From a virus: 33,277 nt of DNA. The translations under genes and the position numbers were made by a program. Within the stretch, counting starts at the first letter, position 1, and every line of letters begins with the position of its first letter. Under the pieces are notes generated by a model, which saw only the letters and a list, made by a program, of their open reading frames with translations, was not told where the DNA came from and searched no databases. The stretch lies in IMG/VR virus record IMGVR_UViG_3300021479_000051, positions 1-33,277 of that record; one strand, written 5' to 3'. This document shows positions 16,596-33,277 of the stretch, in pieces.

Positions 16596-16817
16596 TTAGT
16601 CGTCATCCACCAGCGTGGCGCTCGGAAGCCGCCACGCCGGAAGTTCCCCTGTTTTCAGTTTCGTACGCCATGTGCCGTCGGAATCCGTCCACACATACCC
16701 GTGGTCGGTCATGACGGCGTCGTACTTGATACGGACGCGCTCACCCAGCTCCTCCAGCTTGTTGAGCGCGTCCGCGATATCGGCCAGCAGGACAGAAGCG
16801 ACTTCAGAAGTGCTCAT
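16596..16817 (-). CDS. Small protein coupled to portal gene
   Basis: This 73-residue protein starts at an ATG at 16817 that shares its A with the portal stop (TGATG), so it is translationally coupled. The N-terminal half is an amphipathic helix (VASVLLADIADALNKLEELG). The C-terminal half holds a YVWTDSDGTWRTK beta hairpin. It has no recognised family. Its place between portal and protease suggests a head assembly role. Confidence 0.68.
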   Translation of the reverse strand: MSTSEVASVLLADIADALNKLEELGERVRIKYDAVMTDHGYVWTDSDGTWRTKLKTGELPAWRLPSATLVDDD

Positions 16818-19800
16818 CACTGCCTTTCCCGCCCGGCAGTGAGTGCTGCCAGGACGAGGGGGAGATCCGCCAGCAATTCGGCCCGGACGGCAGGGTTGCC
16901 CTCCAGGTGACCGGTGTCCCACCAGGCGAGGGACTCGAACGCGTCGCCGTCGGGGTCATCCGGATTCATGACGTCGTCCCGGCTGTCCCCGATCTGGACG
17001 TCGTCCTCAGTAGGAACTTCGTAGACGAATCCACGGTATTTGCCGTTGGAGGACAGCCATTTGCCTTTCAGGCGTCCGTCGGGCAGGTGCAGGCCCGTCT
17101 CCTCCTGCCACTCCCGCACCGCGCCCATCACCGGGGACTCGGACTCCTCCAGGCAGCCGCCCGGGAACTCCCAGGTGCCCGCTGCCGGGTCCGGCGGAGT
17201 CGTACCGACCTTGTCCGAAACACTCTCGCCGTCATCGTGACTGATGGAGCCATCCGCATGGGACCACCAGTCACCGCCATCCATGCCCCAGGCCAGCTGC
17301 GTACCGCACGGGCACGTAACTGGACCAGCAGCCCGCTGGAGCATCAGGACACGCCCCGAATCCGCCGCCCGTACAGCGATACCCGAAGCGATAGGACCCT
17401 GCGGCCCGAAACGCTTCGCAACATCGCCGCCGTTCCCCGGATCCCAGGCGTCGCACACGTCACTGGACCGGATCGTGCCTTCAACCAGCGAGCAGCCGTC
17501 CGGGGCGAGGAACATGGAGCACGTCCCGCAGCTCTTCCCCGGCTCGGTGGCCTGCCGGTAGTCCACCGACTCCGGGGAGACCTTCTCCCGCTTGTTCGCC
17601 GGATCCGATCCCTTGTGGAACTGGTGGGTGTGCGTCTCGAACCACGGCCCGTCCTGGGAATGCACCCGGCCGATGTACACCAGCGCCGGACGCCCCAACT
17701 CCTTGTACGCCAGAGCTCGGTGATGCCCGTCGACCACGTCGACCGTCGGATCACCCGGCTCCAGCACCGTCACCGACGGCTTCGGCAGGTCGCCCGACTC
17801 GATCCGCTCCTTGAAGTCGTCGACCTTGGCCTGCTGGTGGTGCGCCGCCCAGTGCTCCTCATTGCTGTAGTTCACGAGCTCGTGCGGAAGACTCACCGGG
17901 CCGGTCCAGCGGGCCTTTTTGATCCACTGGATGGATTCCGGCGGAAAATTCTTCAGCATCTGCTCGTACACCACATCGGCGGACACCGTCGGGTGCACCG
18001 GCATATGGATCTCGGACTTCGCCGTCTGAATGCCCTCGGCGTCATGCGGGAATTTCGTGAAACCCCCGCCACCGGCCGGATTGCTCCACCAGTCGGGCTT
18101 GTCCGGGTCCGGATCCGCCCAGAACTCCTGACCGTTGTCCATGACCCGCCGCATACGCCGCGAGACGTCGATCGCGGTCTCCACGTCCAGTCCCTTGGCC
18201 ATGTACTCCGCAATACGGGCCAGCACGTCGTTGCCGATGTGCTTGGCCTCCCAAGAAGTGATCAGGCGGCCTTTTTTGACGTGCCGGGACAGGGCCTCGA
18301 ACTCGGACTGCACCGCCCGGTCCTGCGCCTCGCCCTTGGCGGCACGGGACGCACGCGGACGCTTGGCACCGGCCGCCGCGACGTCGTGCGCCGGTGTCTG
18401 GGCACTCGGCTTCGTGCCCGTGGCCGGTTTCGCGCCAGCAGCTGGCTTTGCGGCCGGTTTCGCAGCAGCCGGAGCAGGTTTCGCCGCTGGTTTGGCCGCC
18501 GCAGCTCCTGCAGCCGGTTTTGCGGCCGAGGGGGACGGCTTCGTGCCCGCAGGGGCGACCCCCGGAACCTCCGGAGGGACCACCGCAGGCGTCTCCGTGA
18601 GACTCGGAGCACGCGAAGCACCCGCAGGCAGCGGCGCGAACTCCGGACCCTGGAGATTGTTCGTCCGCTGCGCCTCCACCGCCTCCTGGAGCGGGAACCA
18701 GCCCTGCGGCGTCGCCCACCCCGGGTCCGAGGTCTCCGGAAGACCCCACGGCTGCAACTTCAGCTCCGAGCGCGCCTCGTCGATGGACCGCAGGCCCGCA
18801 CCCACCTGCTGGGTCAGCAGCTTCGTGAGAACTTCCTCGTCTTTCTCCTCCTGCGTCCCCTCGAACACGAACCGCATGTCGTCCTGCTTGCAGATCACCT
18901 GGAGGATGTAATCCATGATGTCCGCGATGAACGTCAGCGTCGGCTTCGTCGCCTTGCGCGCCTGGACGTCCTGCGACATCTTCGCCATCTGGTGCGCGGC
19001 ACCCGGCGAGGTCGTCGTGGACACCTTCGGCATGATGCCCAGCTCCATCGGCTGCACATCAAAAGCCATGCACACCTGATTCATGACCACTTCGTCGAAC
19101 TGGTCCGCCAACTGCTGCTCACGCTGCGGCATCACCTTCGAGTCCGAGGGAAGGACAATGATCTTGTGCTTCCACGCCGGGTCACCGGCAATCGCGTTCA
19201 GCGCGTCCTGCAACTCACGGATCTGGTTCGGCGTCATGTTCGAATTCACGCCGCCCGGGCTCACGTACACCGCCGGAACCGTACCCTCACGGAAATAATC
19301 CAGCTGGTAGCCTTGCTTCTGCAAACCCGACATCACCGGGATCAGAGCACGCTCGATCGGCGGGAAACCGTACGGAGTCCACCGGCGCGGAACCATCGGC
19401 AGGTACAGCAGCTGGTTCGCGTGCCAGGAATTGACCTCCGCACCCTTCAGATTCCCGTTCGCGATGTCCCGCTCCGTCAGAAGCGTCATGAAATCCGAAC
19501 GTGGCACCCCGTACAGGTACTGCTGGTACGCCGCAGCCGGAGGACGCGGCCGGGCACCGTGCATGTCCAGCAGGGGCCGGATCGTCGGACCGTTGATCAG
19601 CGAAATCGAGTCCAGATTCGACCCCAGCAGACCCTTCTTGCTGGAACGGTCCCACTTCGAGCGGAACAGCAGCGACAGGGCGTCGAAAACGAAAATCTCC
19701 TCCAGGAACGCGTCGATGAACGAGTCCCACGAGAAATAGTCCGGGTCCGGGCCGGACTGGAAGAACTTCATCGCCTCCTGGCGGCGCTCCCCGAAGTCCT

Positions 19801-20299
19801 TCATGTCATCGTGCGACCCCCGCATCGCCTTCGCGGCGTCATGGGTGGGCATGATGTCCCAGTCGATGCCACGGATCTCGTTCTTCCGCAGCTGAATACA
19901 CGCACGCGCCACCGAATACAGGTCCGCCAGCGAGCGCAGCGTGTTGAAGTCAGCGAGCTTGATGCCCTCCGAGCCGGGGGTGCCCGTCGGGAGGTTCCAG
20001 CCCACCTGGTACTCGTACAGGCGCGCGTCCGGGAAGTCCGAACCCGGCTCCGGGGCATCCACCGGCACGGGGAGGATCGGCGAGAACGGCCCGAACGCGC
20101 CGTTGATGAAGTCATCGGCCGGACGCGGCAGATACGAGCGGTACGCGTTCGTCCAGGACCCGTCCTGGCCCCCCGTGTCCAGCTGCCGCGCCATCGGCGA
20201 CACCGAACCGATGTACCCGTTCCCGGAACCCTGCGCCGAGGGGCTCTGCTGCTGACGGATCGCCTTCGCGCTGGAAATAATGGAACCGCGACCGGACAT
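16817..20299 (-). CDS. Portal protein fused to ParB-like and Nudix hydrolase domains
   Basis: This 1160-residue protein is about twice the usual portal length. Residues about 90-560 are an HK97-type portal: helical wing, FLEEIFVFDALSLLF, the YLPMVPRRWTPYGFPPIERA segment and a C-terminal crown with LKLQPWGLPE. Residues 585-640 are an AAKPAAKPA linker. Residues about 840-880 contain TVDVVDGHHRALAYKELG, as in ParB-like domains. Two Cys-rich segments follow (CGTC at 924-927 and CPCG at 996-999). Residues 970-1155 are a Nudix fold with a full Nudix box at 1048-1070 (GCLEESE, then REWQEETGL). The frame is uninterrupted and starts at ATG 20299. The portal role is sure; the roles of the fused domains are unknown. 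Confidence 0.92.
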   Translation of the reverse strand: MSGRGSIISSAKAIRQQQSPSAQGSGNGYIGSVSPMARQLDTGGQDGSWTNAYRSYLPRPADDFINGAFGPFSPILPVPVDAPEPGSDFPDARLYEYQVGWNLPTGTPGSEGIKLADFNTLRSLADLYSVARACIQLRKNEIRGIDWDIMPTHDAAKAMRGSHDDMKDFGERRQEAMKFFQSGPDPDYFSWDSFIDAFLEEIFVFDALSLLFRSKWDRSSKKGLLGSNLDSISLINGPTIRPLLDMHGARPRPPAAAYQQYLYGVPRSDFMTLLTERDIANGNLKGAEVNSWHANQLLYLPMVPRRWTPYGFPPIERALIPVMSGLQKQGYQLDYFREGTVPAVYVSPGGVNSNMTPNQIRELQDALNAIAGDPAWKHKIIVLPSDSKVMPQREQQLADQFDEVVMNQVCMAFDVQPMELGIMPKVSTTTSPGAAHQMAKMSQDVQARKATKPTLTFIADIMDYILQVICKQDDMRFVFEGTQEEKDEEVLTKLLTQQVGAGLRSIDEARSELKLQPWGLPETSDPGWATPQGWFPLQEAVEAQRTNNLQGPEFAPLPAGASRAPSLTETPAVVPPEVPGVAPAGTKPSPSAAKPAAGAAAAKPAAKPAPAAAKPAAKPAAGAKPATGTKPSAQTPAHDVAAAGAKRPRASRAAKGEAQDRAVQSEFEALSRHVKKGRLITSWEAKHIGNDVLARIAEYMAKGLDVETAIDVSRRMRRVMDNGQEFWADPDPDKPDWWSNPAGGGGFTKFPHDAEGIQTAKSEIHMPVHPTVSADVVYEQMLKNFPPESIQWIKKARWTGPVSLPHELVNYSNEEHWAAHHQQAKVDDFKERIESGDLPKPSVTVLEPGDPTVDVVDGHHRALAYKELGRPALVYIGRVHSQDGPWFETHTHQFHKGSDPANKREKVSPESVDYRQATEPGKSCGTCSMFLAPDGCSLVEGTIRSSDVCDAWDPGNGGDVAKRFGPQGPIASGIAVRAADSGRVLMLQRAAGPVTCPCGTQLAWGMDGGDWWSHADGSISHDDGESVSDKVGTTPPDPAAGTWEFPGGCLEESESPVMGAVREWQEETGLHLPDGRLKGKWLSSNGKYRGFVYEVPTEDDVQIGDSRDDVMNPDDPDGDAFESLAWWDTGHLEGNPAVRAELLADLPLVLAALTAGRERQ

Positions 20300-22838: not shown

Positions 22839-23032
22839 CCTGCCGCCGTCCTGGTCACCACCGGAACCGCCGCATGCGGAACCGCGAACACCGCCTTCTG
22901 CGGAACCTCATCGTCCACGAACACAATATAGTCCGCGTCGATCAGGAACTCCTTCGCCTGCACCACAAACACCGGGGCGGGCGAGGAAGAGGACCAGCCC
23001 TCCGGATAGCACACCACACTGTACGTATTCAC
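22835..23032 (-). CDS. Small hypothetical protein downstream of terminase
   Basis: This 65-residue frame starts with GTG at 23032 overlapping the terminase stop (GTGA), with GGAG five bases upstream. It begins MNTYSVVCYPEGWSSSSPAP, with beta strands FVVQAKEFLIDADYIVFVDD and PQKAVFAVPHAAVP. It may be a small beta-barrel protein. Coupling to terminase suggests co-expression; function unknown. Confidence 0.68.
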   Translation of the reverse strand: MNTYSVVCYPEGWSSSSPAPVFVVQAKEFLIDADYIVFVDDEVPQKAVFAVPHAAVPVVTRTAAG

Positions 23033-24683
23033 GCAGACTCCATCTGATGGTCGAGGATAACCGGCGTCTGACAGAACGGGCACTTCGTACGCGGACCCGC
23101 AGGCGTGCTGGCCATGAAACCACCCGCGCACTTGTGGCACTTCAGCGTCCCGTACGCGTCATGCCACGAACCCGACGCCGTGAACAACGCCATGACCACC
23201 GCATCCGCCTTGTCCGTAGAACGCCCGATGCGCTTGCGGATATCGTCCTTCGACTCCATCTTCAACTTGCCGCCCGACAGCAGTTCCGCAGCACGCGGCG
23301 TCGTCAGATCCGCGAGGAGGTCGTCGTCCGGGGGAAGGCACAGCGTCGGCTTCGGCGTCGCCGACGGATCCAGAAGCTCCCGCACCTTGTGCCACGCCTC
23401 CACCCGCAAATTCGCGAACCCCATCTCCCCCGTCTTGTCCCTGCGCCGGGAAGAATTCGCCGCATTGAACGCATCCGCCTTGAACCCCTGCTCCCGCAGC
23501 CGGTCCAGAACACCCGCACCGATCCCGATCACATCCACAATCGCCGTACGGTCCGGATCCGCCTCCAGCAACCCAGCCACGCGGCCAGACGTGGTCATCG
23601 TATCCTCAAGGGAATACGTGCGGATCTCCGTGACCACATCCCCGTCCCGCAGGGCCAGACACGTCTTGTCCGTACCCTGCCGGGCCACATCCACCCCCAC
23701 CGTCCGCACCCCGGACTGCGCAGGACGGCCCGCCTGATCCCAGACGTGCCAGCGCTCCACCGCCTGCTCCGCCCACGACAGCGGCACCACCGAGTCCTCT
23801 TCACCCGCATAGAACTCGCCCAGAACACGGTTCTGGTACATCGACGAATTCTCGCCCCACTGAATCCGCCGCTGCTCCGCCCACTCCGGAGAAATACGAC
23901 CCGACCGGATCGCGTCATCGAGGGTCACATGCTTCACCGCCCAGTCCTCAAGACCGGGCTTCCGCGACTGGATATCATAGAACCGGCCCTGCGGCGGACC
24001 CGGCGTCGACAAAGCCATCGCATAGCAGTTGCCCGTACCCGAGAAAGCACCCTCACACGCGTTGAAGGTTGTCGCGTCAATAGCCTTCGACTCATCGAAG
24101 CAAAAAAGTAGATCATCCGCGTGCGCTCCCTCAATGAGGGCGGGGTTCGAGGCCGCAGCGGCAAACGCATTGCCGTGGTTCAGTCGCAACGCGAGATTGA
24201 GCATCTCCGAATTCTGGAAAGGCTCGGCACGAATCTTCTCCCACCGGAGCTTGTTCGCCCACTTGCGAATCTCCGGCCACAGATAGTTGATTCCCGTTTC
24301 TTACATGCCCCCGACGGCTGCCCGCCAGGGACATGTAAGATCAGCTGACGCCAAGCGCCAGCCGTGGTCACCACCTTCCAGTCAACCTGTGCGGCATCCC
24401 GGGTAATGGCAAACCAGAGAACCGTGACTGCGGTGATGGTGCTCTTTCCGAGCCCATGCGGCCCCCGGACAGACACACGCTTGTGGTCCCGCAGCATCTC
24501 CAGAATCTCGTCCTGGTAGAACGTCAGGCCGCCGTCTTTGCCCCAGTCGATACAGTCCCGGGCGAAACCCACCGGGTCATGGAAATACTTCTCCACACCC
24601 TGGTTCAATGCAGCGGCACGAGCCTGCAAGTCTTTCAAATACTGGAGGCGCTCCAGCTTCAGTTCCTCAAGAGTCTCAGCCAC
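23029..24683 (-). CDS. Terminase large subunit, interrupted by a 50-nt candidate bypass
   Basis: The ATPase and nuclease that packages phage DNA is encoded here in two frames. The first frame starts with GTG at 24683 (GGAGG upstream) and carries Walker A RGPHGLGKST (73-82), but leaves the conserved path after I115. The second frame resumes with NYLWPEIRKWANKL and carries Walker B LLFCFDE (D180), nuclease acidic residues D315, D367 and D477, and a C-terminal zinc ribbon (499-502, 518-521). Leaving out 24338-24289 gives 534 residues, a normal length. Without skipping, the first frame stops at 24180 after 167 residues. Alternatives are an inactivated gene, two separate proteins with restart at ATG 24204, or assembly error. 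Confidence 0.9.
24289..24338 (-). other. Candidate 50-nt translational bypass (coding gap)
   Basis: Take-off would be AUC (Ile115) at 24341-24339 and landing on a second AUC at 24291-24289, with decoding resuming at AAC (24288-24286). The gap including the landing codon is 50 nt, so frames on the two sides differ. Removing it reunites conserved terminase sequence, WRQLI joined to NYLWPEI. The resumed frame has a TAA inside the gap (24303-24301), so reading simply in that frame is blocked. The size, matched codons and hairpin match T4 gene 60. Bypass itself is inference. Confidence 0.65.
24300..24339 (-). repeat. Inverted repeat forming hairpin in the gap
   Basis: In the mRNA CUUACAUGUCCC (24339-24328) pairs with GGGGCAUGUAAG (24311-24300) over 12 bp, including one G-U pair, around a 16-nt loop that may itself fold through GGC and GCC. 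The first base of the stem is the third base of the take-off codon. The eight outermost pairs are perfect. Confidence 0.9.
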
Positions 24684-24698
24684 AGCACCTCCCCTTGG

Positions 24699-25361
24699 TC
24701 ATTCAATGTGCTTCCAGTGTTGACGGAGAACAATCCGGGATACTGTCGCCCGGCTGACTCCGATGTCTGCGGCGACGTCCTTTTGAACCTCACCAGCCGC
24801 AACGCGCTGGCGGATCGTTCTGACCAGTTCTGCGGTGAGTACCGCTGTGTTGACGCGCTCGCCGCGCGGACGACTCTCCGGGTGCTTTCGTGACCCGTTA
24901 CGGTCCCCATAGGACCAGGACTCCGGATGCGTACGCATATGGTCACCGATTCGGTTGCGCAGATCGTCACACTTCCGGAAGGGGTGCTCGTCACCACGCG
25001 GGCGGCTCTCAATATGAACGCGCGAACCATTCCGGTCACCGGAGGCTGTGCGCCCCCGGGCATCCCGATCAGCAACATTGTCAGCAGGCGTACCCCAGAG
25101 AAGATGGTCAGGGTTGACGCAGCGAAGGCGGTCACACGTGTGCCGTGAGACCTCTCCTGTCACGCCCGTCTTCTCCTCCAGCACCCAGCGGGCTGTCTTC
25201 TGGTACCGGTAGTTGATTTGAATGTGTGGGTAGTACGGCATCTCGCCGTCACGCCCTGCCCAAATACCGAAGGCCCACAGCCAGCAGCCGGTTACCGGGT
25301 CAATGCGGCAGACCTTCCGAACCTGCCCAGTAACGTCGTTCTCGCTCCAGCGGATTCCCAT
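24699..25361 (-). CDS. HNH endonuclease between terminase genes
   Basis: This 220-residue protein has the HNH_3-type layout: CWLWAFG near residue 30, then a conserved SRHTCDRLRCVNPDHLLWGT core that supplies metal and catalytic His/Asn residues, then the NVADRDARGR helix. Two copies of GDRNGSRxHxESRPRG follow, and a C-terminal helix-turn-helix (VQKDVAADIGVSRATVSRIV) probably sets DNA specificity. The start at ATG 25361 is chosen because it directly precedes the conserved domain; upstream residues are atypical and no strong Shine-Dalgarno is seen. It interrupts the terS-terL pair and lies 345 nt upstream of the 50-nt gap in terL. It is probably a free-standing homing endonuclease. Confidence 0.88.
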   Translation of the reverse strand: MGIRWSENDVTGQVRKVCRIDPVTGCWLWAFGIWAGRDGEMPYYPHIQINYRYQKTARWVLEEKTGVTGEVSRHTCDRLRCVNPDHLLWGTPADNVADRDARGRTASGDRNGSRVHIESRPRGDEHPFRKCDDLRNRIGDHMRTHPESWSYGDRNGSRKHPESRPRGERVNTAVLTAELVRTIRQRVAAGEVQKDVAADIGVSRATVSRIVLRQHWKHIE

Positions 25362-25398: not shown

Positions 25399-25989
25399 CT
25401 AGAGACCCTCGACCGGTGCGGGCGGAAGGCTGGTGATACTCGGAACGACTGCTGGCGAGGGGGCTGGAAGCTCTGCCTGAAGAAGCTGCTGTTCAAGCTT
25501 TGAAATCTCAGCTTCTATGCGGTCTATCGAGATCACCTCGAACTTCGCCGGGGCGTACAGGCCCATCATCTTCGCCCGCTGGTCCTTCACCTTCTGAATA
25601 CGGTCAGCGGTCTCCAGAACAAAGCGGCTGTCCGGCACCGGATCGCCGTTCTCGTCCCGGACGATCCTGCCCTGCGAGATCACCACATGCTGGCCGTCCA
25701 GAAGCTTCCACAACCGGTACTCCAGCTCGTCGAGGGACTGGAGCTCGATCACCTTCATCTCGTCCACCGTGAACCGGTACATCGACGCCAGATGCGCCCG
25801 GATCGCCGTAGCCACCCGCGACGTATCTGGCAGGCCCTCCTCCGAGAACCAGCCGAAGGACTCCGCAATGCCTTCGAGGGGGGTGCCCAGGGCCTTCAGC
25901 CGGGCCGCCTCCGCCCGCACGCCCGCACCCTTACGGATGCGCTCCGGGTCGGCGAGGGGGAGAAGCGAGGAATCGTCGTTGAAACGCAT
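25399..25989 (-). CDS. Terminase small subunit (probable)
   Basis: This 196-residue protein heads the virion operon, upstream of the large terminase. The ATG at 25989 has GGAGG nine bases upstream; a GTG sixteen codons earlier lacks such a site. Residues 25-70 contain a helix-turn-helix-like region (EAARLKALGTPLEGIAESFG) that could bind phage DNA. The middle has LQSLDELEYRLWKLLDG and a helix with ETADRIQKVKDQRAKMMGLY, as in actinophage small terminases. The C-terminus is a coiled coil followed by a Pro-rich tail. The identification rests on position and fold features; a replication role is less likely. Confidence 0.8.
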   Translation of the reverse strand: MRFNDDSSLLPLADPERIRKGAGVRAEAARLKALGTPLEGIAESFGWFSEEGLPDTSRVATAIRAHLASMYRFTVDEMKVIELQSLDELEYRLWKLLDGQHVVISQGRIVRDENGDPVPDSRFVLETADRIQKVKDQRAKMMGLYAPAKFEVISIDRIEAEISKLEQQLLQAELPAPSPAVVPSITSLPPAPVEGL

Positions 25990-26027
25990 ACCGCACCGCC
26001 TCCGGACAGACTTGTGGCATCGATCGG

Positions 26028-26057
26028 AATATAGCACGCAATTGTCCGTGCACGCAA
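26028..26057 (-). promoter_or_regulatory. Promoter for the virion operon
   Basis: On the minus strand TTGCGT (26057-26052) and TATATT (26033-26028) are separated by 18 nt. A start about 7 nt downstream would give a leader of about 32 nt to the terminase ATG at 25989, containing its GGAGG. It lies in the divergent gap beside the plus-strand HNH promoter. Confidence 0.6.
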
Positions 26058-32246: not shown

Positions 32247-33277
32247 ATGGAACCCAACGAAGAACACCCCCAAGGCGCGGCAGTCCTTGACGCAACAGAA
32301 CGCTGGCTGCGCCGCTTCGTGCACTTCCCCTCCGAAGCGCACTACACCCTCGCAACCCTGTGGGTGGCGGGATCCCACATGACCGACGAAACCGGCACCG
32401 TCGTCCACAAGGCATACGGACGGCTGGGATTCGTCAGCAACGAACCCGCCTCCGGCAAAACCACAGCCATGGAACGCGCACTAGCGCTCACCCCGCGCGG
32501 CGAGGTGCTGGTACAGCCGTCTCTGGCAGGCATCATGGACGCCATAGACGAGCGGCAGATCATTGCCCTTGACGAGGCGGACAAGTACTTCGGTCGCACC
32601 GGACGCATGGCCCATGTCACGGCGTTCCTCAATGCCGGGTACAAGCAGGGTGGTGGCCTTGTGCGACACCGTGGCCGGAAGGTCGACAGTTTCGCCCTGG
32701 TCATGTACTCCGGTCTGTTGGAGGCACTGGGGGTGAACCCCGACCTGCAACCGCTTCGCACACGGTCGTTCCTGATCGAGATGCACGCCATGACCCACGG
32801 CACCACCGTGGAGGAGTACGACGACGAGCGCCACGACGCCCCTCAGGGCATCCTGCGGCAGGCTGTAGCGTCCTGGGCCCACTCGGTGGCGCACGTGGCC
32901 TCTGGGGTGGTCGTGGAGACGCCTGAGGGGGTCACCAACCGCCGTGCACAGATATGGCGTCCTCTGCTCCGCACGGCGGCTCTGGCAGGCGGGTACTGGC
33001 CGGACAGGGCACGTGAGGCGTGCGAGGAACTGGAGTCCGGTATCAGCAGTGCGGCACTGGTTCTCACACCGGAACAGCGCATCATTGCCGATGTACTGGC
33101 CGTGTGCGAGGGGGTGTCCCGGGTGCCTACGCCGACGCTCATTGAAGCGCTGCATGAGGTGGAGGGTGCGCCTTGGAAGTTCGTGCTCCCCCATAAGAAG
33201 GGCGGCGCTGCCAGTTCGGGTACGGCGCGTGAACTGGCTGCCTTGTTGGAGCCGCATGGTCTGTTCCCGCGTCCGCT
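32247..33277 (+). CDS. DUF3631-type ATPase, 3' end outside window
   Basis: At least 343 codons are open from ATG 32247, behind AGGA, to the window edge. Residues about 60-80 hold a P-loop (GFVSNEPASGKTTAMERAL) and residues about 105-116 a Walker B motif (IIALDEADKYF). The region around RMAHVTAFLNAGYKQGGGLV, RTRSFLIEMHAM and the later LLRTAALAGGYWPDRA matches the DUF3631 type of proteins tied to phage or plasmid primase-helicase systems. It may act in replication. The remaining C-terminus lies outside the window. Confidence 0.8.
   Translation, partial: MEPNEEHPQGAAVLDATERWLRRFVHFPSEAHYTLATLWVAGSHMTDETGTVVHKAYGRLGFVSNEPASGKTTAMERALALTPRGEVLVQPSLAGIMDAIDERQIIALDEADKYFGRTGRMAHVTAFLNAGYKQGGGLVRHRGRKVDSFALVMYSGLLEALGVNPDLQPLRTRSFLIEMHAMTHGTTVEEYDDERHDAPQGILRQAVASWAHSVAHVASGVVVETPEGVTNRRAQIWRPLLRTAALAGGYWPDRAREACEELESGISSAALVLTPEQRIIADVLAVCEGVSRVPTPTLIEALHEVEGAPWKFVLPHKKGGAASSGTARELAALLEPHGLFPRP

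Follow-up and report, generated by a model that had tools for sequence, protein, structure and literature searches.

A 50-Nucleotide Coding Gap in a Viral Large Terminase Gene and Its Probable Bypassing by Ribosomes

Introduction

How can a large terminase be made as one protein when the two parts of its gene lie in different reading frames? The question is raised by the terL gene of an uncultured virus known from a single contig, an IMG/VR record of 33,277 bases that was analyzed at its full length and is called the window below. For more than 35 years, gene 60 of T4 has been the case on which efficient bypassing over long distances by bacterial ribosomes rests. If the terL gap is bypassed too, an essential gene in a phage unrelated to T4 would supply another 50-nt example and, together with dozens of short gaps in other terminases, make a class of what has been a curiosity. 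This would open the way to a comparative dissection of the signals and to direct tests in Streptomyces bldA mutants. Bypass gaps would then also explain why gene callers split these terminases.

A Gap in a Conserved Terminase Gene

All window features given in this text lie on the minus strand (-). The 5′ part of terL (24339..24683) begins with GTG at 24683 and spans 115 codons, which encode the Q motif, the Walker A motif GPHGLGKS and the final residues AWRQLI; this part matched the terminase large subunit family PHROG_2 (1.2e-5). Homology resumes at AAC 24288, in a frame other than that of the 5′ part, and the 3′ part that starts there (23029..24288) opens with NYLWPEI and carries the remaining ATPase domain, the nuclease domain and a Cys-rich C-terminal end. 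Between the two lies a coding gap of 50 nt (24289..24338) with the layout AUC / UUA CAU GUC ... GGGA AUC / AAC, which has no counterpart in any of the relatives. Read without a shift, the upstream frame is closed by UGA at 24180..24182 and gives a default product of 167 aa. Joined across the gap (GTG 24683 to AUC 24341-24339, then on from AAC 24288 as far as the stop at 23029), the gene gives a product of 534 aa. The uninterrupted TerL of a relative, L003, is 90% identical to it, with 79% and 92% for the two parts. The identification as TerL is further supported by PDB sequence matches to TerL proteins and by a Foldseek match between the model of the L003 TerL and Sf6 gp2 (E 6e-23). The preliminary description had thus placed the gap exactly in coordinates, frames and length; its identical bounding AUC codons (24341-24339 and 24291-24289) and the single 534-residue terminase obtained by removing the gap were both recovered.

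The relatives comprised seven viruses from IMG/VR at first, to which more were added by profile search. In the blastn alignments read, a single clean gap of 50 nt opened at this one position, and the 22-codon segment around the site measured exactly 66 nt in 90/90 alignable TerL loci, with no length change, so that none of these loci holds the 50 nt; the preliminary description had named such a comparison with related terminases as a check. The insertion site corresponds to I118/N119 of the L003 protein and falls inside a helix spanning residues 114-129 of its AlphaFold model (mean pLDDT 90). The best explanation is that the 50 nt are a real insertion in terL, which would be transcribed and left undecoded.

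A second copy of the insert was found neither in IMG/VR, scanned with a strict pattern of its hairpin, nor among 84,980 genomes, scanned with a relaxed one, and blastn against phage records returned chance matches only; the idea of a repeated mobile element was rejected on these grounds. No other viruses with an insert at the same terL site were found. An insertion that inactivated the gene recently, a minority variant or an error of assembly, any of which would mean that this copy makes no terminase, would fit a single contig and the lack of a second record with the insert, and small quasi-palindromes are known to give rise to insertions and artefacts. We consider this explanation unlikely, given that both halves of the gene have stayed intact, with 79-92% identity to L003, that the genes adjoining terL show no clear broken frames, and that the insert starts with UUA and ends with a matched codon (p about 2e-4). 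Removal of the 50 nt from RNA or DNA, by splicing or excision, appears extremely improbable: the hairpin element does lie between 3-nt direct repeats (ATC), but its length is below that of any self-splicing intron, no Rfam element matched it up to E=1, and no recombinase occurs among the neighboring genes scanned.

Signals at the Proposed Take-Off and Landing Sites

The proposed take-off codon, AUC (Ile115, 24339..24341), is part of a predicted hairpin (24299..24340) that starts at its second base. The hairpin described at take-off in the preliminary account is present, its size being 19 bp, including 3 G-U pairs and closed by the loop GCAG, and not the 12 bp given there. No other 44-nt stretch of the entire transcribed strand folds more stably (−34.9 kcal/mol, against a mean of −11.8 and an sd of 4.2), and a 91-nt fold at the site has a z-score of −4.3. 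With AUC in the P site, about 8 bp of the stem would be left at the mRNA entry, and 12-15 bp could refold behind a landed ribosome. Another predicted stem, of 6 bp, lies 5′ of the take-off codon (24360-24346).

The first codon of the gap, which would occupy the A site at take-off, is UUA (24336..24338). Of all sense codons in the window ORFs, UUA is used least (4/10,595), a count that includes some perhaps spurious ORFs and may not reflect its scarcity in the host, and it is absent from the rest of terL. No tRNA-Leu was found in the record, whose sole tRNA is a tRNA-Ser(GCT) at 32377-32471. The proposed landing codon, AUC (24289..24291), is the only AUC or AUU within the gap; it is thus the first met after take-off and forms the last triplet of the gap (gap position 47). 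When 50-mers were drawn at random from the same strand, the fraction with a slow or stop codon first and the first AUY as the last triplet was 0.00019. The gap of T4 gene 60 (NC_000866), used as a control, passed both tests, that on the first codon and that on the first matching codon coming last. Upstream of the landing codon, AGAAACGGG (24293..24301) is a suggestive, weak Shine-Dalgarno-like stretch (−5.9 kcal/mol against the anti-SD). Neither a KKYK nascent-peptide signal in the 115-residue N-terminal part nor a stop codon directly after take-off was found, UUA standing in its place. The UUA and the landing AUC being the first AUC/AUU go beyond the preliminary description, as does an HNH gene about 15 nt upstream of terL.

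Frameshifting, Reinitiation and Bypassing

A skip of 50 nt amounts to a −1 change of frame, and the upstream frame is open to 24182; a −1 ribosomal frameshift just past the hairpin would accordingly yield a terminase with about 16 extra residues. We regard this as very unlikely. The UAA of the downstream frame (24301..24303), which the preliminary description had already noticed inside the gap, closes the −1 frame for any shift made within the hairpin; the sole slip-prone run, GGGGGCA at 24312, precedes it, and past it no heptamer allows good re-pairing. The hairpin also lies upstream of the point where the shift would be required, and a slippery heptamer followed by structure in an open −1 frame, the signature of programmed −1 frameshifting, was not found at the site. 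Moreover, the insert falls within the helix 114-129, and some 16 added residues would therefore cut a conserved helix in a segment whose length never varies. The reasons for which frameshifting had earlier been judged the poorer fit, namely the place of the hairpin, the lack of a slippery heptamer and the break in a conserved stretch, thus hold.

It is still harder to credit that the gene makes two polypeptides through termination and reinitiation at AUG 24204. This codon does stand just before the UGA of the upstream frame (24182-24180), and T4 gp39/gp60 is an example of a working split enzyme, but such a split terminase would lack 28 conserved residues that lie between Walker A and Walker B in the ATPase core, and no well-spaced Shine-Dalgarno sequence precedes AUG 24204.

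Programmed bypassing of the 50 nt is probably the mechanism in this one contig of an uncultured virus and is the best supported by its sequence. It is favored because there is no slippery site past the UAA, the insertion falls in mid-helix, the matched codons have no earlier cognate between them, and UUA and a hairpin stand at take-off. The ribosome would stall once AUC, paired with peptidyl-tRNA-Ile, occupies the P site, the rare UUA standing in the A site and a GC-rich stem at the mRNA entry. Codon-anticodon pairing would then be lost at the take-off AUC, the ribosome would slide over 50 nt while the hairpin refolds behind it, and re-pairing on the first AUC met would let decoding restart at AAC, to give a single 534-aa terminase. 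Sliding in T4 was processive up to 56 nt in vitro (PMC11194080). Ribosome hopping, the reading proposed in the preliminary description, was favored by every sequence-level test. Against bypassing stand the single contig, without a second example of the insert in IMG/VR, the 84,980 genomes or the phage records; the lack of the stop after take-off and of the KKYK signal that T4 has; and the position of the known short gaps, at Walker A after KGWG and not at the site in the window. The stalling, sliding, landing and protein product are inferred from these sequence features.

Short Gaps in KGWG^KDP Terminases

Atkins et al. (2016, PMC5009743) called bypassing at UUA likely for two terminases, that of prophage StrepC.1 and that of Streptomyces phage phiHau3. 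The phiHau3 terminase gene has two 10-nt gaps, GGC / UUACUCCGGU / AAG and UCU / UUAACGGUCC / ACG. The first, in the form GGC / UUACYCCGGU / AAG, is shared by phiHau3, GreenWeasel, BroPlease and Triumph, while Omar and Yosif are gapless there; GreenWeasel has both gaps, BroPlease and Triumph have the first, and Omar and Yosif have none, so that four isolated Streptomyces phages carry such gaps. In the second gap, UCU / UUAACGGUCC / ACG (phiHau3, L010:2895-2955; GreenWeasel, L095), take-off and landing are both Ser codons. A UUA-anchored pattern identified 23 terminases with such gaps in IMG/VR and four matching sites in 393 genomes from the genus to which L013, a Streptomyces, belongs.

To avoid the circularity of that pattern, IMG/VR was also scanned with the gap content left free, in an open scan that fixes KGWG and KDP by design and covers gaps at that site, the one used by phiHau3, only. 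It returned 79 contigs, of which 53 carried terminases, with 37 distinct gaps of 4-13 nt. The first codons of these 37 gaps were UUA (11), UGA (10), UAG (8), UAA (3) and others (5), that is, UUA or a stop in 32/37; stop codons being as common as UUA, the UUA start is not an artefact of searching for TTA. The last codon was GGN in 31/37, matching the Gly take-off codon, and AGC in 5/37, and when the letters after the first codon were shuffled in 10,000 trials, GGN ends averaged 5.5 and never exceeded 13. The same take-off and landing rule thus recurs, at the level of sequence, in independent terminases. Gap lengths fell into all three mod-3 classes with one protein outcome, and therefore no single +1 or −1 shift, nor readthrough alone, suffices. 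Every KGWG^KDP gap would be accounted for if ribosomes hop from one Gly codon to another across a stop or slow codon. Beyond phiHau3 and StrepC.1, the 53 terminases of the open scan (L101-L126 and L134-L184) apparently make up a large set of bypass sites. A search for longer UUA gaps at KGWG (35-65 nt) gave three matches, of which 0/3 were terminases.

The TerL family of the window holds one further frame break, a 7-nt insert at Walker A (GPHG^LGKS) in L050:2740-2765, GGA / UUAGCGA / CUG, whose landing codon CGA matches take-off at two positions only. Long, in-frame, intein-like interruptions of Walker A were also noticed (L002:1799-2809, L025:463-1478, L058:1662-2758 and L064:1677-2758); they start with Ala or Cys, and those of L002 and L025 end in HN. 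Walker A therefore attracts several kinds of insertion.

Comparison with Known Systems

The gap of T4 gene 60 (NC_000866) has GGA at take-off, UAG first, the sole GGA at its end and a take-off stem. The window resembles it in the 50-nt length, in a take-off stem-loop that includes the take-off codon, in the absence of the gap from relatives, and in an HNH gene nearby upstream (mobA in T4). It differs in that the gene encodes a terminase and not a topoisomerase, the matched codon is AUC instead of GGA, UUA replaces UAG after take-off, the stem has 19 bp, KKYK is missing, and terL itself is not split by the HNH gene. With phiHau3 and StrepC.1 it shares a terminase gene, UUA as the first codon, a landing codon that matches take-off and the exact resumption of the conserved protein, whereas gaps of that type measure 4-13 nt, sit mostly at Walker A after KGWG and belong to a different TerL family; the 50-nt gap of the window is structured and lies about 35 residues further on, at the WRQLI/NYLWPEI junction. 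It looks like a long, structured version of the short-gap type. Taken over the full feature lists, the best-supported assignment is that the gap works like T4 gene 60 and the phiHau3 type and is a plain member of neither, because it has no stop after take-off, no KKYK and is not a short Walker A gap.

Two other systems bear some likeness. The byp elements of Magnusiomyces capitatus mitochondria are short inserts hopped by ribosomes with the frame restored (PMC5009743); the likeness is one of description, and they differ in being mitochondrial, in numbering 81 per genome and in their relaxed matching. In the tape measure gene of Corndog, an HNH insertion comes with a proposed bypass (PMC4351075); this is again an actinophage in which an HNH insertion adjoins an odd translation event, unlike the window in that no matched-codon gap is described there and a non-standard start codon is equally likely.

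On balance, we lean toward hopping between matched codons, set off by a stop or UUA, as a widespread class of recoding in phage terminases, in which short gaps of 4-13 nt at Walker A occur in many lineages and the window provides a long, structured form of 50 nt; it may tie packaging to the supply of host UUA-tRNA (bldA) or to termination status.

Neighborhood of the Gene

A free-standing HNH (His-Me finger) endonuclease gene with a C-terminal HTH (24699..25361) stops about 15 nt short of terL and is itself preceded by a gene common to the relatives in the small-terminase position (25399..26037; PHROG_645). The endonuclease is a possible mobile partner of the 50-nt insert; both are missing from L002-L005 and L008. 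A strict linkage of the two as a cassette is weakened by L056, L057 and L060-L062, in which an HNH gene, 35% identical, stands upstream of terL, yet the insert is absent. In L056:1900-2553 and L062:1900-2553, this gene of the window's HNH family lies directly upstream of a terL without the 50 nt. Elsewhere in the window, the portal protein (16817-20299; 1160 aa) has ParB-like (817-879) and Nudix (1039-1100) matches in its C-terminal region, an unusual fusion.
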